A stretch of DNA of 64,000 nt. Origin: Terrabacter tumescens. GTDB taxonomy: Bacteria; Actinomycetota; Actinomycetes; Actinomycetales; Dermatophilaceae. A model generated the notes under the pieces. It saw nothing but the letters and a program-made list of their open reading frames with translations, was not told where the DNA came from and did not search any database. Of this stretch, positions 5,849-11,708 are shown in pieces. Positions within the stretch are counted from its first letter, which is position 1. Each line of letters opens with the position of its first letter. The position numbers were made by a program, and so were the translations under genes. The DNA lies in contig NZ_BMNZ01000006.1 of the NCBI RefSeq assembly GCF_014646815.1, positions 62,001 to 126,000 of the forward strand, given 5' to 3'.

Positions 5849-6224
5849 GGTGCGTCCCTCTCACGGTGGTGCTGCGGATGCCCGGTCGGTCGTGCGCCTG
5901 TGGTGCACGGGGGCTGTGTGGCTGGTGTGGCTGGTGTGACCGAGACGCGGGTAGAGCCCTGCTCTCGGTGCGGGGTTGGGGTGGCCGGTCGGCCGGTGCT
6001 GGCGACGATCAGGTGGAGGGTGCTGATCGCTGCCGGATGGGGAGGTGGTCGTGCTGCTCGTGTCCACCTGGGGGCTGGTCCCCATCCGCTACCTCGCCCG
6101 GGACGGGGGAAGTCGTCCCGGGAGCGGAGCGGCTGGAGGCCGGCACTCAGGTGCAGTCGGTCGGGGTGTCGGTCGGAGGTGGTCGGGTGCGGTGGGTGGC
6201 TGGTCGGGGGCGGCGGTCCGGGGC
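5849..6224. other. Intergenic mraZ-rsmH region with short direct repeats
   Basis: 376 bp with no convincing gene; short frames in it lack family-like sequence and start sites. It contains tandem GTGTGGCTG units at 5916-5924 and 5925-5933 plus a degenerate third copy at 5934-5942. The stretch is rich in GTGG/GGTG on the plus strand. It may be a long leader of the rsmH message or hold a second promoter; neither can be shown here. Confidence 0.5.
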
Positions 6225-6711: not shown

Positions 6712-6743
6712 CTCCACGATACTCCACTCTCCTCCACCGTCAA
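6712..6743 (-). promoter_or_regulatory. Predicted mraZ promoter overlapped by three MraZ-type boxes
   Basis: On the minus strand, TTGACG (6743-6738) and TATCGT (6721-6716) with a 16 bp spacer form a plausible -35/-10 pair about 60 bp before mraZ. Three direct GTGGAG repeats occur exactly 10 bp apart at 6737-6732, 6727-6722 and 6717-6712. They fill the spacer and overlap the -10. Known MraZ proteins bind sets of G-rich TGGG-type repeats about 10 bp apart before mraZ. The boxes are seen directly; binding and repression are inferred. Confidence 0.8.
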
Positions 6744-6798
6744 CGACGTTTTACCCAATTTGGTCCGGCGAGTTGCACGTTTGCGCAGGTCAGATGCG

Positions 6799-6814
6799 GT
6801 GGAGCGAAGTGGAG
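6799..6814 (+). promoter_or_regulatory. GTGGAG box pair facing moxR (distal)
   Basis: GTGGAGCGAAGTGGAG: two GTGGAG boxes spaced 10 bp on the plus strand, opposite in orientation to the mraZ set and about 310 bp before moxR. Same spacing and core as the mraZ operator; a second candidate MraZ site. Confidence 0.6.
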
Positions 6815-6936
6815 TGCTGCGAGCGCCACGCGTGACGCAGGCGACGCAGCCCCGCCGCCCGCTCCCCCGTGGCACGCGCACGAGCCACACGGCATACGCC
6901 CGGGAACGAACCGAACGCCTCCCCCGGACGTTGGAG

Positions 6937-6952
6937 GTGGAGGAAAGTGGAG
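6937..6952 (+). promoter_or_regulatory. GTGGAG box pair facing moxR (proximal)
   Basis: GTGGAGGAAAGTGGAG matches the core of the mraZ operator, GTGGAGGAGAGTGGAG, at 15 of 16 bases but in the opposite orientation. It lies about 170 bp before the moxR start and directly follows TTGGAG, a weak -35-like hexamer placed as TTGACG is at mraZ. No good -10 is evident. MraZ control of the moxR operon is inferred from the match. Confidence 0.65.
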
Positions 6953-7120: not shown

Positions 7121-8143
7121 GTGACGACGACGGACACGGGGCTCGAGACCACGGCATCGGCCGGCTCGCCCGCGGGCGCCAGCGGTGACGGGGCCGACCT
7201 CGGCCTGATCCACGACGTGGCCGACCGCCTCATCGGTGCGATGACGAGCGTCATCGAGGGCAAGGCCGACGTCGTCCGCACCACCGTGACCGTGCTCTTC
7301 GCCGGTGGGCACCTGCTCATCGAGGACGTTCCCGGCGTCGGCAAGACGATGCTCGCCAAGACGCTGGCCCGTTCGATCGACGCCACGGTGCGCCGCATCC
7401 AGTTCACGCCGGACCTGCTGCCGAGCGACGTGACGGGCGTCAGCATCTTCAACCAGGACGCGCGCCGCTTCGAGTTCCGGCCGGGCGCCATCTTCGCCAA
7501 CGTCGTCGTCGGCGACGAGATCAACCGCGCCTCCCCCAAGACCCAGTCGGCGCTGCTCGAGTCGATGGAGGAGCGCCAGGTCACCGTCGACGGCACGACC
7601 TACACGCTGCAGGCCCCCTTCATCGTCATGGCCACCCAGAACCCCATCGAGATGGAGGGCACCTACCCCCTCCCCGAGGCCCAGCGCGACCGGTTCATGG
7701 CCCGCATCTCGATGGGCTACCCCTCCCCCCGCGCGGAGCTCGACCTGCTCGAGACCCACGGCTCGACCTCGCCGCTCGACGCGCTGACCCCGGTGACCGA
7801 CGCCGAGACGATCAACCGCGTCGTGCAGTCCGTCAGCCACGTCCACGCGAGCCCGGCGGTGCGCCAGTACATCGTCGACCTCGTCACCCGCTCTCGGTCC
7901 ACGACGGCGCTGCGGCTCGGCGCGTCCCCCCGCGCGGCCCTGCACCTGCTGCGTGCCTCGCGGGCGTACGCCGCGCTCGAGGGGCGCGACCACGTGATCC
8001 CCGACGACGTCCAGGTCCTGGCCGGTCCCGTGCTCGCGCACCGGCTCATGCCCTCGAGCGAGACCCAGCTCGCGCGCCGCACGACCGCCGAGGTGGTCAC
8101 CGACCTGCTCCGCCAGGTGCCGGTGCCGCCCACAGCCCGCTGA
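7121..8143 (+). CDS. MoxR-family AAA+ ATPase
   Basis: AAA+ chaperone-like ATPase of the MoxR family, probably acting on the product or substrate of its membrane-linked neighbours; 340 residues. Walker A is DVPGVGKT (about 77-84), Walker B is VVVGDEINRA and sensor 1 is FIVMATQNPIEMEGTYPLPE, followed by the C-terminal lid. The GTG at 7121 was chosen because GGAGGA lies at 7111-7116 and the conserved region begins soon after; the frame stays open upstream to 6869 without homology. DUF58 and transglutaminase genes follow, the classic MoxR-DUF58-TgpA order. Two GTGGAG box pairs lie in its leader. Confidence 0.93.
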   Translation: MTTTDTGLETTASAGSPAGASGDGADLGLIHDVADRLIGAMTSVIEGKADVVRTTVTVLFAGGHLLIEDVPGVGKTMLAKTLARSIDATVRRIQFTPDLLPSDVTGVSIFNQDARRFEFRPGAIFANVVVGDEINRASPKTQSALLESMEERQVTVDGTTYTLQAPFIVMATQNPIEMEGTYPLPEAQRDRFMARISMGYPSPRAELDLLETHGSTSPLDALTPVTDAETINRVVQSVSHVHASPAVRQYIVDLVTRSRSTTALRLGASPRAALHLLRASRAYAALEGRDHVIPDDVQVLAGPVLAHRLMPSSETQLARRTTAEVVTDLLRQVPVPPTAR

Positions 8144-8157
8144 GCGGGGACGCGAAC

Positions 8158-9402
8158 ATGCGCTCGCTGTGGAGCGTGCTGACGACGCGGGGCCGGGCCT
8201 TCATGGGCTCCGGCGCCGTCCTCGTGCTCGCCGGCGTCATCTTCGGCTTCCGTGACCTCACGCGCTTCGGGGTGCTCCTCGTCGCACTGCCCATCATCTC
8301 GGCGGTGCTCGTGCGCACGCGCAAGACGCGCATGCGCATCGAGCGGCACACCCACCCGGAACGGATCAGCGTCGGCCAGGACGCCCACGTCACCCTCTCC
8401 TTCGAGAACGTCTCGAGCGCCACGACCCCGATCTTCCTCGCGGAGGAGCGCCTCGACTACGTCCTCGGTGACCGGCCGCGCTTCGTCGTCGGCCGCATCC
8501 CGTCCGGACGGGTACGCGCCATCGACTATGCCGTCCGCTCCCACCTGCGCGGACGCCACCACCTCGGCCCCCTCGGCGTGCAGGTGCAGGACCCCTTCGG
8601 CCTCGCCAACCGCAACGCGGTGCTCGAGGGGACGGCGGACCTCATCGTGCTCCCCGCCGTGCACCCGCTCTCCTCCAACCGTCAGCCGAGCGCCGGAGTC
8701 GGCTCGGAGGGCGAGCAGGCACAGCTCATCTCCCTGCACGGCGAGGACGACGTCACCATCCGCGAGTACCGCGACGGCGACGACCTGCGTCGCATCCACT
8801 GGCCGGCGACGGCCCGCACGGGTGACCTCATGGTGCGCCAGGAGGACCGACCGGCCCAGCGTCGCGCCGTCGTCATCATCGACCCGCGCCCCTCCGCCCA
8901 CGGTGGCACTGGAGCGAGCAGCTCGTTCGAGTGGGCGGTGACGGCCGCGGCCTCCGTGGCGGTCCACCTGTGCGACTCGGGGTATGCCGTCCACCTCGTC
9001 TGCGCCGAGACGGTCGAGACGTCGCGGGCCGCCGAGACGATGACGCCCGACGAGATCCTCGACGTGCTGGCCGTGGCCACGACACGGGACGACACCGGTG
9101 AGGACGAGATCCTCCGCGCCGGGCAGGCCCTCGCCTCTGCGGGCGGCTTCCTCGTGGCCATCGTCGGCCCGTCCGGCCGGGACGTCACCTCGCGCGTGGC
9201 GAGCCTGCGCCAGCCCGGCACCACCGGGCTCGCTCTCGTCCTCGACGCGCGCAGCTTCGGCACCACCGATGCCGAGGAGGCCGAGCCGCACGTCGACGCG
9301 CTGCGACTCGCCGGCTGGCGAGCCGTCGCCGTCCAGCGCGACGAGGACGTCGCGCACGCCTGGGCCGTGCTGACGGCCGCGACCGTGGGAGGCAGCCGAT
9401 GA
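8158..9402 (+). CDS. DUF58 family membrane-associated protein
   Basis: Member of the DUF58 family, whose vWA-like C-terminal part is thought to be served by the MoxR ATPase; 414 residues. Two close hydrophobic segments near the N-terminus (about 17-30 and 37-51) anchor it. The conserved DUF58 core follows around 195-230 (TIREYRDGDDLRRIHWPATA). The start has GGGGA upstream and lies 14 bp after moxR. The stop overlaps the next ATG, so all three genes are probably co-translated. The biochemical function of the family is not settled. Confidence 0.9.
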   Translation: MRSLWSVLTTRGRAFMGSGAVLVLAGVIFGFRDLTRFGVLLVALPIISAVLVRTRKTRMRIERHTHPERISVGQDAHVTLSFENVSSATTPIFLAEERLDYVLGDRPRFVVGRIPSGRVRAIDYAVRSHLRGRHHLGPLGVQVQDPFGLANRNAVLEGTADLIVLPAVHPLSSNRQPSAGVGSEGEQAQLISLHGEDDVTIREYRDGDDLRRIHWPATARTGDLMVRQEDRPAQRRAVVIIDPRPSAHGGTGASSSFEWAVTAAASVAVHLCDSGYAVHLVCAETVETSRAAETMTPDEILDVLAVATTRDDTGEDEILRAGQALASAGGFLVAIVGPSGRDVTSRVASLRQPGTTGLALVLDARSFGTTDAEEAEPHVDALRLAGWRAVAVQRDEDVAHAWAVLTAATVGGSR

Positions 9403-11708
9403 CCCGTCGTCGCTGGAGGATCACCGTGCTCGCCGCACTCGCGACGCTCGGCGCGGTCTACCCCATCACCAGCCTCTTCGTCGAGACGACGTGGGTGCCG
9501 CAGGCTGTCTTCGTCATCGCGCTCGTGGCCGGGCTCGGCCTCGTCGGCCGGGGACTGACCCGGTCACGGGTGCTCGTCGTGCTCGCGCAGGTGCTCGTCA
9601 CCGGCTACGTCATCCTCGCCCGTTGGACCGGGGAGACGTTCGTGCTGCTCGTGCCCACGCCCGCGACCCTCGAGGCTGCCAACTCCCTCGCGCTGCAGGC
9701 CCTCGAGACGATCAACCGCTACTCCGCGCCCGCACCGCTCAACGACGGCATCACCTTCTGCCTCGTCGTCGCCGTCGCCCTCGTCGCGATCGCGGTCGAC
9801 GCGATGGCGGCGACGTGGCGCAGTCCCGCGGCCGCAGGGCTCCCGCTGCTCACGGCCTACCTCATCACGGCCGCCAACGGCGAGGCCGCGCTCGCCCTGC
9901 GCTTCTTCCTCGTCCCCGTGGGCCTGTGGCTCGTCATGCTGCACACGACGGCACGCGCGCAGTTCGGCCGCTGGGGCACGGCCAGCGCCGCGGGGCACAG
10001 CGAGATCGACGAGGCGGCCCACGACCGGGACGCCCTGCGCTCCTTCACTGCCGGCGCGCTCAAGCTCGGCGCCGCCGGGGTCGTCATCGCGCTGCTCGTC
10101 CCGGCGGTCGTGCCGCACTTCCCGCCCCGCTACCTCACCGAGGGCCTCGGGCGCAGCGGCGACGGTGGCGGCGAGGGTTCCGTCGGCTTCAACGACACCC
10201 TCGACCTGTCCCGCAGCCTCAACAACCAGGACCAGTCACCCGTCCTGACCTACACGACGACCGCGTTCACCCGGGCCCCGCTGCGCGTGCTCGCCACGTC
10301 GTACTACTCCCGCGGCGAGTGGAGCGTCGTCGGCGCGACCGGTGCGCGCCCCGAGAGCCCGACACCCCTGCCGCCGCAGGACAAGCGACGCGACTACGTC
10401 ATCACCGTCTCGGACAACACCCTCGCGGCACCGCGGATCGCCGCCCCCTACCCGGTCGTGGCCGTGGCCATGGAGGGCACGCCGTGGACCATCGACCCGG
10501 TCACCCGCGACGTGCGGGTGGGCCGGGCGGTCAGCAGCTACCGCGTCACCTACGCCGACCTCGCCCCCACACCACCCCAGCTGCGCGAGGCGGGCTCGCC
10601 GGACTCCCCCGACATCACCGAGGACGACCTCAACGTCCCCGAGCGCTCGCGCGACCTCGTGCAGCGCTGGTCCGACGAGGTGACCCGCGGCAAGGACAAC
10701 GCGCTCGACAAGGCCATCGCGATCCAGAACCACCTGCGCGACACGAGCCGCTACACCTACTCGCTCGACCTCGGCGAGCAGCTCCGCGACAGCGAGGGCC
10801 GTCCGCTCGAGCCGATCCAGAGCTTCTACCAGACCCGGCGCGGCTACTGCGTCCAGTTCGCGACGGCGATGATCATGATGGCCCGGGCCCAGGGCATCCC
10901 CGCGCGCATGGCCATCGGCTTCCTGCCTGGCCAGCTGTCCGACGAGCACTACGTCGTCCGGGCCAGCGACGCCCACGCGTGGCCCGAGCTGTACTTCCAG
11001 GGCTACGGCTGGCTGCGCTTCGAGCCGACGCCGGGCGCCCGCGCCGGGACCCCGCCCCCGTATGCCGTGGTCGGTTCGGACTCGGGCGCGACGGGCGGCG
11101 GCCGCGAGGTCAGCGAGTCGGCCTCGCGCAGCGCCTCGAACACCGTGCCCACCACGAGCACCCAGGCCACGGCCGCCCCGGTCCAGCAGCAGCGGGGCCT
11201 GCTCGACACCATCGGCGCCGCGTTCACCGTGCGCAACCTCCTGATCCTCGTCGCCGTGCTCGTGGGACTGCTCGCAGCCTTCGCCATGCCCATCACGGCG
11301 TGGCTGCTCCGGCTGCGACGGCGACGAGCCGCCGTCACCCAGCAACAGCTCATCGAGGCCGAGTGGGACGACCTCACCTCGCACCTCGGCGACCTCGGCA
11401 TCGACGCTCCCGAGGGGGTCACGCTGCGACAGCTGCGCGAGCGCTACGTCACCGACGGACACCTCGACGAGGAGAACGCCACCGCGATGCGACGCGTCAC
11501 GGCGACGCTGGAGAAGTCCCGCTACGACCGCCCCGAGCGGACGACGCCGCAGGAGGCGGTCCGGTTGCACGACGACATCCGCTCGATCCGGCGCCAGGTG
11601 GGCCGCACCCGGGCGTGGCAGGCCAGGGCCAGGTCGTTCTTCTGGCCGGCGGTCGGCGTGTCGTTCTGGCGGTCCCTGCCCGAACGCCTGCTGGCCCGGC
11701 GCCGCTGA
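9399..11708 (+). CDS. Transglutaminase-like membrane protein (TgpA type)
   Basis: Large membrane protein with an extracytoplasmic transglutaminase/protease-like domain; 769 residues. Several N-terminal membrane spans within about 1-240 precede a soluble domain. That domain has the transglutaminase core RRGYCVQFATAM with nucleophile Cys484 and SDAHAWPELY with His526; WLRFEPTPG supplies the acidic third position as Glu. A Ser/Thr-rich linker, one further span (about 610-637) and a basic cytoplasmic tail with a DUF4129-like acidic/helical stretch follow. It ends the MoxR-DUF58-TGase operon. The family is known in bacteria (TgpA is essential in Pseudomonas), but the actinobacterial substrate is unknown. 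Confidence 0.9.
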   Translation: MTRRRWRITVLAALATLGAVYPITSLFVETTWVPQAVFVIALVAGLGLVGRGLTRSRVLVVLAQVLVTGYVILARWTGETFVLLVPTPATLEAANSLALQALETINRYSAPAPLNDGITFCLVVAVALVAIAVDAMAATWRSPAAAGLPLLTAYLITAANGEAALALRFFLVPVGLWLVMLHTTARAQFGRWGTASAAGHSEIDEAAHDRDALRSFTAGALKLGAAGVVIALLVPAVVPHFPPRYLTEGLGRSGDGGGEGSVGFNDTLDLSRSLNNQDQSPVLTYTTTAFTRAPLRVLATSYYSRGEWSVVGATGARPESPTPLPPQDKRRDYVITVSDNTLAAPRIAAPYPVVAVAMEGTPWTIDPVTRDVRVGRAVSSYRVTYADLAPTPPQLREAGSPDSPDITEDDLNVPERSRDLVQRWSDEVTRGKDNALDKAIAIQNHLRDTSRYTYSLDLGEQLRDSEGRPLEPIQSFYQTRRGYCVQFATAMIMMARAQGIPARMAIGFLPGQLSDEHYVVRASDAHAWPELYFQGYGWLRFEPTPGARAGTPPPYAVVGSDSGATGGGREVSESASRSASNTVPTTSTQATAAPVQQQRGLLDTIGAAFTVRNLLILVAVLVGLLAAFAMPITAWLLRLRRRRAAVTQQQLIEAEWDDLTSHLGDLGIDAPEGVTLRQLRERYVTDGHLDEENATAMRRVTATLEKSRYDRPERTTPQEAVRLHDDIRSIRRQVGRTRAWQARARSFFWPAVGVSFWRSLPERLLARRR

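Follow-up and report, generated by a model that had tools for sequence, protein, structure and literature searches.

The region between mraZ and the divergently transcribed moxR carries G-rich repeats on both of its sides, which raises the question of which gene the repeats that face moxR serve. An earlier note on this DNA had seen three GTGGAG boxes with a 10-bp period over the predicted mraZ promoter and two pairs with the same spacing facing moxR, and had proposed that MraZ thereby also controls the transglutaminase operon that moxR heads. Here, we analysed the window, that is, the whole stretch of 64,000 nucleotides from Terrabacter tumescens, together with related loci. We propose, with a probability of roughly two in three, that the moxR-facing pairs (R1 and R2) are auxiliary MraZ operators that act with the array at the mraZ promoter (F), via a phased loop or wrap, in the autoregulation of mraZ and the division genes. 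The features are listed in Table 1.

The product of mraZ matches PF02381 over two stretches (131 bits against a cut-off of 23) and has relatives of solved structure (1n0e, 9qlr, 9qlg and 9sx6); in a protein search its best named matches, from Terrabacter and close relatives, were 96-99% identical. The gene heads a division and cell-wall cluster, being followed downstream by rsmH (PF01795), a transpeptidase PBP and a Mur ligase, with a frame lacking a Pfam match between rsmH and the PBP. The mraW RNA motif was also found in eight of 14 related loci in an Rfam scan.

Table 1. Features of the mraZ-moxR region, in positions of the window
Feature	Position	Strand	Remarks
mraW RNA motif (known family), gap between mraZ and rsmH	6056..6158	-	RF01746, 55 bits, gathering score 50
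mraZ, transcription regulator MraZ, 143 aa	6225..6656	-	PF02381, 131 bits
Promoter operator F (putative), three GTGGAG boxes, 10-bp period	6712..6737	-	
Predicted -10 of the mraZ promoter, TATCGT	6716..6721	-	read from sequence; overlaps third box
Predicted -35 of the mraZ promoter, TTGACG	6738..6743	-	read from sequence
Conserved element between R1 and F, CTGACCTGCGCAAACG	6778..6793	-	core TRACCWG
Auxiliary operator R1 (putative), GTGGAGCGAAGTGGAG	6799..6814	+	87 bp from TA-spacer F pair; conserved, helically phased
Auxiliary operator R2 (putative), GTGGAGGAAAGTGGAG	6937..6952	+	138 bp past R1; ~170 bp 5' of moxR start
moxR, MoxR-type AAA ATPase (AAA_3), divergent to mraZ	7121..8143	+	PF07726 + PF17863
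DUF58 protein	8158..9402	+	PF01882
TgpA-type membrane transglutaminase	9399..11708	+	PF11992 + PF01841

Exact GTGGAGN4GTGGAG pairs are present at 6712-6727(-) and 6722-6737(-), which together form the three boxes of F, and at 6799-6814(+) and 6937-6952(+), and the moxR-proximal pair GTGGAGGAAAGTGGAG and the mraZ core GTGGAGGAGAGTGGAG are identical except for one base, all as the earlier note had read them. Its judgement that several such pairs are improbable by chance is borne out by the 4.7-Mb genome, which contains five exact pairs in total, four of them inside 241 bp of the window, and two matches to the reversed pattern used as a control. With one exact pair elsewhere in the genome, a chance origin of the boxes was rejected. 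A genome-wide search with two pair patterns for a wider MraZ regulon gave no second cluster of pairs.

For the comparison with relatives, a named set was taken from a search with the MraZ protein (the best 80 of 363 loci, 68 with and 12 without a divergent moxR), an order set consisted of 78 loci from 159 sampled genomes of the same order, and a class set of 59 loci from 118 genomes. It must be kept in mind that the order and class loci are automatic returns and picks made for family spread, not a random draw, that three loci of the order set come from the family of the window and are shared with the named set, that one class locus was dropped for having no upstream DNA, and that shared descent inflates all locus counts. 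The strict pair pattern was GTGG.G....GTGG.G.

Boxes one and two of F occupy the 16 bp separating TTGACG from TATCGT, and box three overlaps TATCGT. Since the boxes fill the -35/-10 spacing, F lies over a plausible sigma-70-type promoter, which is thus the site of at least two GTG-type repeats with a period of ~10 bp. In 150 of the 158 loci of the named (best 80 of 363) and order sets, a strict pair begins no more than 130 bp away from where mraZ starts. F arrays are tied to the promoter: a TAnnnT-type hexamer stands at one of two fixed places in 150/150 loci, and TTG[AC] directly precedes the array in 84/150.

The moxR-facing boxes are strongly kept as well. Among the 68 named loci with moxR (best 80 of 363), we counted 92 moxR-facing GTGGNG pairs with a 10-bp period at more than 110 bp from the mraZ start, distributed over 58 loci. 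Pairs on the opposite strand were present in three of these 68 loci (best 80 of 363), and other spacings, from 7 to 30, gave 0 to 11 pairs in the same 68; in mononucleotide shuffles of these named loci (best 80 of 363) pairs appeared in a mean of 0.08 loci. The contrasts in strand, spacing and shuffling therefore indicate that the boxes are real sites. Hence, the conservation that the earlier note had suggested checking was found, and its view of the boxes as putative MraZ-type operators is supported by their position, form and linkage. One locus, L179, has an unusually long MraZ-type array of eight moxR-facing pairs 5' of mraZ, several of them 35 bp apart.

Several observations would be in line with R1 and R2 being operators of the moxR-DUF58-transglutaminase operon, through which MraZ would co-regulate this envelope system with the division genes. 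The pairs face moxR; R2 is ~170 bp away from moxR in the window, and the distance is shorter in many relatives, six of seven Knoellia loci having a pair 53-55 bp ahead of the approximate start of moxR; and strict R pairs are present in 36/39 order loci with moxR versus 27/39 without it. The last figure, the retention of R in loci that lack moxR, also speaks against this explanation. In the named loci (best 80 of 363), strict R pairs occur in 58/68 with moxR and 9/12 without, and in other orders in as few as 6/30 loci with moxR and in 11/28 without. As a control, mraZ-facing pairs were counted over this same distal stretch; they were found in 1/39 order loci with moxR and 0/39 without, in 1/68 and 0/12 named loci (best 80 of 363), and in 1/30 and 0/28 loci of other orders, respectively. 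Strict R pairs are missing from 12/39 same-order loci without moxR and from 41/58 other-order loci; therefore, R is not essential to MraZ autoregulation.

In the absence of moxR, the gene upstream of mraZ points, where it was identified, in the same direction as mraZ. Among the 79 loci without moxR, 61 have an upstream DUF3040-like gene in that orientation (the query was confirmed as PF11239), one has a dinB match alone and 17 have neither; in none of the 79 is the best match to DUF3040 or dinB divergent. All 27 order loci that have R pairs without moxR contain the DUF3040-like gene. In 26 of them, the R pair closest to mraZ is located in the gap that separates this gene from mraZ, and in the remaining one (L118) it falls within the DUF3040 match. 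The same-direction DUF3040-mraZ order, often with dinB before it, is conserved in L066-L084 and other loci without moxR.

Nor do the boxes accompany moxR when it is located away from mraZ. Of the 39 order genomes that lack a divergent moxR, 33 were searched; 31 have a MoxR relative, and 30 loci were examined. Strict box pairs were found in 0/30 of them within 600 bp on either strand. The relocated MoxR is at least 50% identical to that of the window in 26/30 loci, while four fall below 50% and may be paralogues; a DUF58 match lies downstream in 29/30, and the loci are too short to show any transglutaminase gene. The opposite situation is given by a family (f34) in which MraZ is absent in 9/9 sampled genomes of 7-10 Mb. 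Here rsmH and moxR keep a divergent arrangement at a distance of 1.0-1.2 kb, and strict F and R pairs are both absent between them in 9/9 genomes; it is the missing F that is informative, since R pairs are in any case uncommon in other orders. Together, the retention without moxR, the relocated loci and this family indicate that R pairs follow mraZ in this order, not moxR. Given the retention, the mraZ-directed upstream gene and the relocated loci, we do not regard control of moxR as what these boxes are conserved for.

If R served the mraZ promoter from a distance, its position relative to F should be informative. Distances were taken from the TA-spacer F pair to the R pairs (199 from 123 loci). 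An open scan of periods from 6 to 18 bp gave a best period of 10.55 bp (phasing strength R=0.54, n=149 genus- or family-distinct distances) and, for distinct values (n=79-80), 10.50 bp (R=0.40). A null in which each value was jittered by at most 10 bp reached the observed value in 1/5000 trials for all distances, in 5/5000 for distances up to 130 bp and in 27/5000 beyond 130 bp. The first R pair alone is phased to F at 10.5 bp with R=0.60 (n=43). Controls at this period gave 0.02 for R pairs to the mraZ ATG and 0.09 for unpaired boxes, whether facing moxR or mraZ. Beyond 130 bp, in the loci without moxR alone, a period of 11.65 bp (R=0.52) beats 10.5 bp (R=0.40; n=29). R1 and R2 are clearly phased to each other in close relatives and in the family of the window itself (at 10.5 bp, R=0.70, n=23). 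Over the wide set, phasing among R pairs is weak (n=48, R=0.27), and we dropped it as a general rule.

A scan of 396 genomes of the order with a gapped pattern, an R pair 73-132 bp before an F pair, gave 168 matches in 167 genomes, and none with the reversed pattern. The distances fall in the bands 75-78, 85-89, 96-100, 107-111, 117-121 and 128-132 bp in 166/168 cases, the two outside being 84 and 95; these whole-turn bands make up 48% of the 73-132 range and were defined after the first distance set was known. When the window's family and the genomes of the fetched loci were held out, 103/104 distances were in the bands, many of them still from relatives of the earlier genomes. Seven of 14 families occupy more than one band (family f18, for example, has 97-99, 109, 119-120 and 130 bp), and therefore the spacing has changed repeatedly by approximately whole turns. 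Counting each family-distance value once, R=0.68 at 10.5 bp (n=49); the best period in the 73-132 range is 11.15 bp (10.85 on 21 distinct distances), not 10.5. Thus, the distal site keeps a conserved helical phase to the promoter site, more weakly beyond 130 bp.

The phase to the moxR start is weak (0.17 at 10.5 bp, nominal p 0.04), and what fixes the position of R is the box array at the mraZ promoter rather than the start of moxR. Taken together with the promoter elements missing at the first R arrays, this makes it unlikely that R1 and R2 are moxR operators, and the claim that MraZ controls the transglutaminase operon through them could not be upheld, given also their retention without moxR, their absence at relocated moxR and their scarcity at moxR in other orders. 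Direct control of moxR may occur in this lineage as a side effect. The comparisons suggest instead that the moxR-facing copies belong to mraZ itself.

The phasing also bears on two readings in which R has no contact with the promoter array. R arrays might serve for titration or storage, binding MraZ and leaving the promoter complex untouched, as the many copies in some loci, for example the eight R pairs of L179, would allow. Such sites would not need a fixed rotational position, yet R is phased to F and unpaired boxes are not, which leaves this role very improbable indeed. Hardly credible is the reading in which the boxes act as DNA or RNA G-quadruplexes and not as protein sites: they are G-rich, and the available part of PMC11796246 reports G4 motifs at several bacterial mraZ promoters, including that of S. 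aureus, but a strict 10-bp array period and a phase between distant arrays are unexpected for such structures. If a quadruplex of the S. aureus type were formed, a helical relation of remote arrays to each other would not follow from this alone.

Because the boxes point away from mraZ in both arrangements, with and without moxR, R arrays could be thought to control a divergent non-coding or antisense transcript from the gap. At the places tested in the first R arrays, a TAnnnT-type hexamer is present in 1/130 loci and TTG[AC] in 11/130, and a comparison of 14 loci with Rfam at gathering scores returned mraW RNA only; such a transcript is therefore very improbable as the target of R.

We return to R1 and R2 as auxiliary operators of mraZ. 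According to this model, most of the gap would be a single control region that responds to MraZ and has the mraZ promoter at its centre. The three boxes of F would be the promoter operator, and the inverted R1 and R2 would be auxiliary operators to which the same ring-shaped oligomer of MraZ binds. As far as the accessible text of PMC7761207 goes, four 7-nt repeats with 3-nt spacers are probably recognised by MraZ as an octameric ring, and an MraZ octamer is cited there as reported in Mollicutes. A ring with spare binding heads could hold the promoter array and an inverted upstream array together, and the contact between F and R would close a loop or wrap of ~8 helical turns in the case of R1 and 21 in the case of R2, whose geometry would select for helical phase. 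As R, and R1 above all, has a fixed rotational position relative to F, MraZ most likely touches both at once. From this arrangement we infer binding of MraZ to R, a single complex bridging the two sites, and repression as the outcome; the phasing could also be due to another protein instead of MraZ. The model predicts that the loop tightens the repression that MraZ exerts on its own gene and on the division and cell-wall genes that follow.

A second conserved element lies between R1 and F. On the mraZ strand its consensus is CTGACCTGCG, followed by a weaker nrA(C/T)(G/A). The TRACCWG core is present 60-85 bp 5' of the F pair in 74/144 loci, and in 3/144 in reverse orientation; it occurs in 62/101 loci with moxR, in 12/43 without moxR and in 10/23 without R pairs, and in other orders in 10/46 loci. 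As CTGACCTGCG is found without R and R without CTGACCTGCG, it is a separate element. Its positions 5' of the F pair cluster at 54-55 (8 matches), 64-67 (71) and 77 (3), so that it too shifts by about one helical turn. The exact CTGACCTGCGCAAACG 16-mer has two copies in the genome; the second (C6:158795-158810; L292 2296-2311) lies ~280 bp before the point at which an NrdR gene (PF22811 and PF03477) begins, and might mark a shared regulator or be due to chance. A possible extension of the looping model, which we put forward tentatively, is an order-wide looped two-factor switch in which the MraZ ring bridges the phased arrays and a protein at CTGACCTGCG bends the loop or activates from one helix face.

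These results weaken the case, attractive in itself, for coupling the moxR-transglutaminase system to MraZ, and CTGACCTGCG points to a second factor at the same promoter. MraZ is widely conserved, yet the use of DNA by its ring is known mainly from single promoter arrays; in the accessible parts of the open-licence literature, including PMC7761207, PMC5138195, PMC9602371 and PMC11796246, we found no distal or looped MraZ sites. The phased distal arrays lead to a concrete prediction, namely looped autorepression of the cell-division cluster.

According to the available parts of the reports, MraZ sites at the dcw promoters of E. coli, Mollicutes and Burkholderia cenocepacia resemble those described here in being direct GTG-containing repeats with a 10-bp period at the mraZ promoter. 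They differ in that their array lies downstream of the -10, over the transcription start, whereas the array here fills the -35/-10 spacer, and in that conserved inverted distal arrays, phased to F, are present further upstream here. A candidate second regulator at the mraZ promoter region would have a parallel in the actinobacterium Dietzia, where MtrA binds this region and controls mraZ, as stated in the accessible part of PMC9602371. The likeness that bears most directly on the looping model lies outside the MraZ family. In the lac, gal and ara systems, a promoter operator is combined with distal operators, and helical phase is kept as the distance between them changes by whole turns. The mraZ region differs from these in having a ring-shaped protein and inverted box arrays, and looping here is what we infer from the phasing; it resembles them in combining a main operator at the promoter with distal operators that keep their phase while the distance changes by whole turns.
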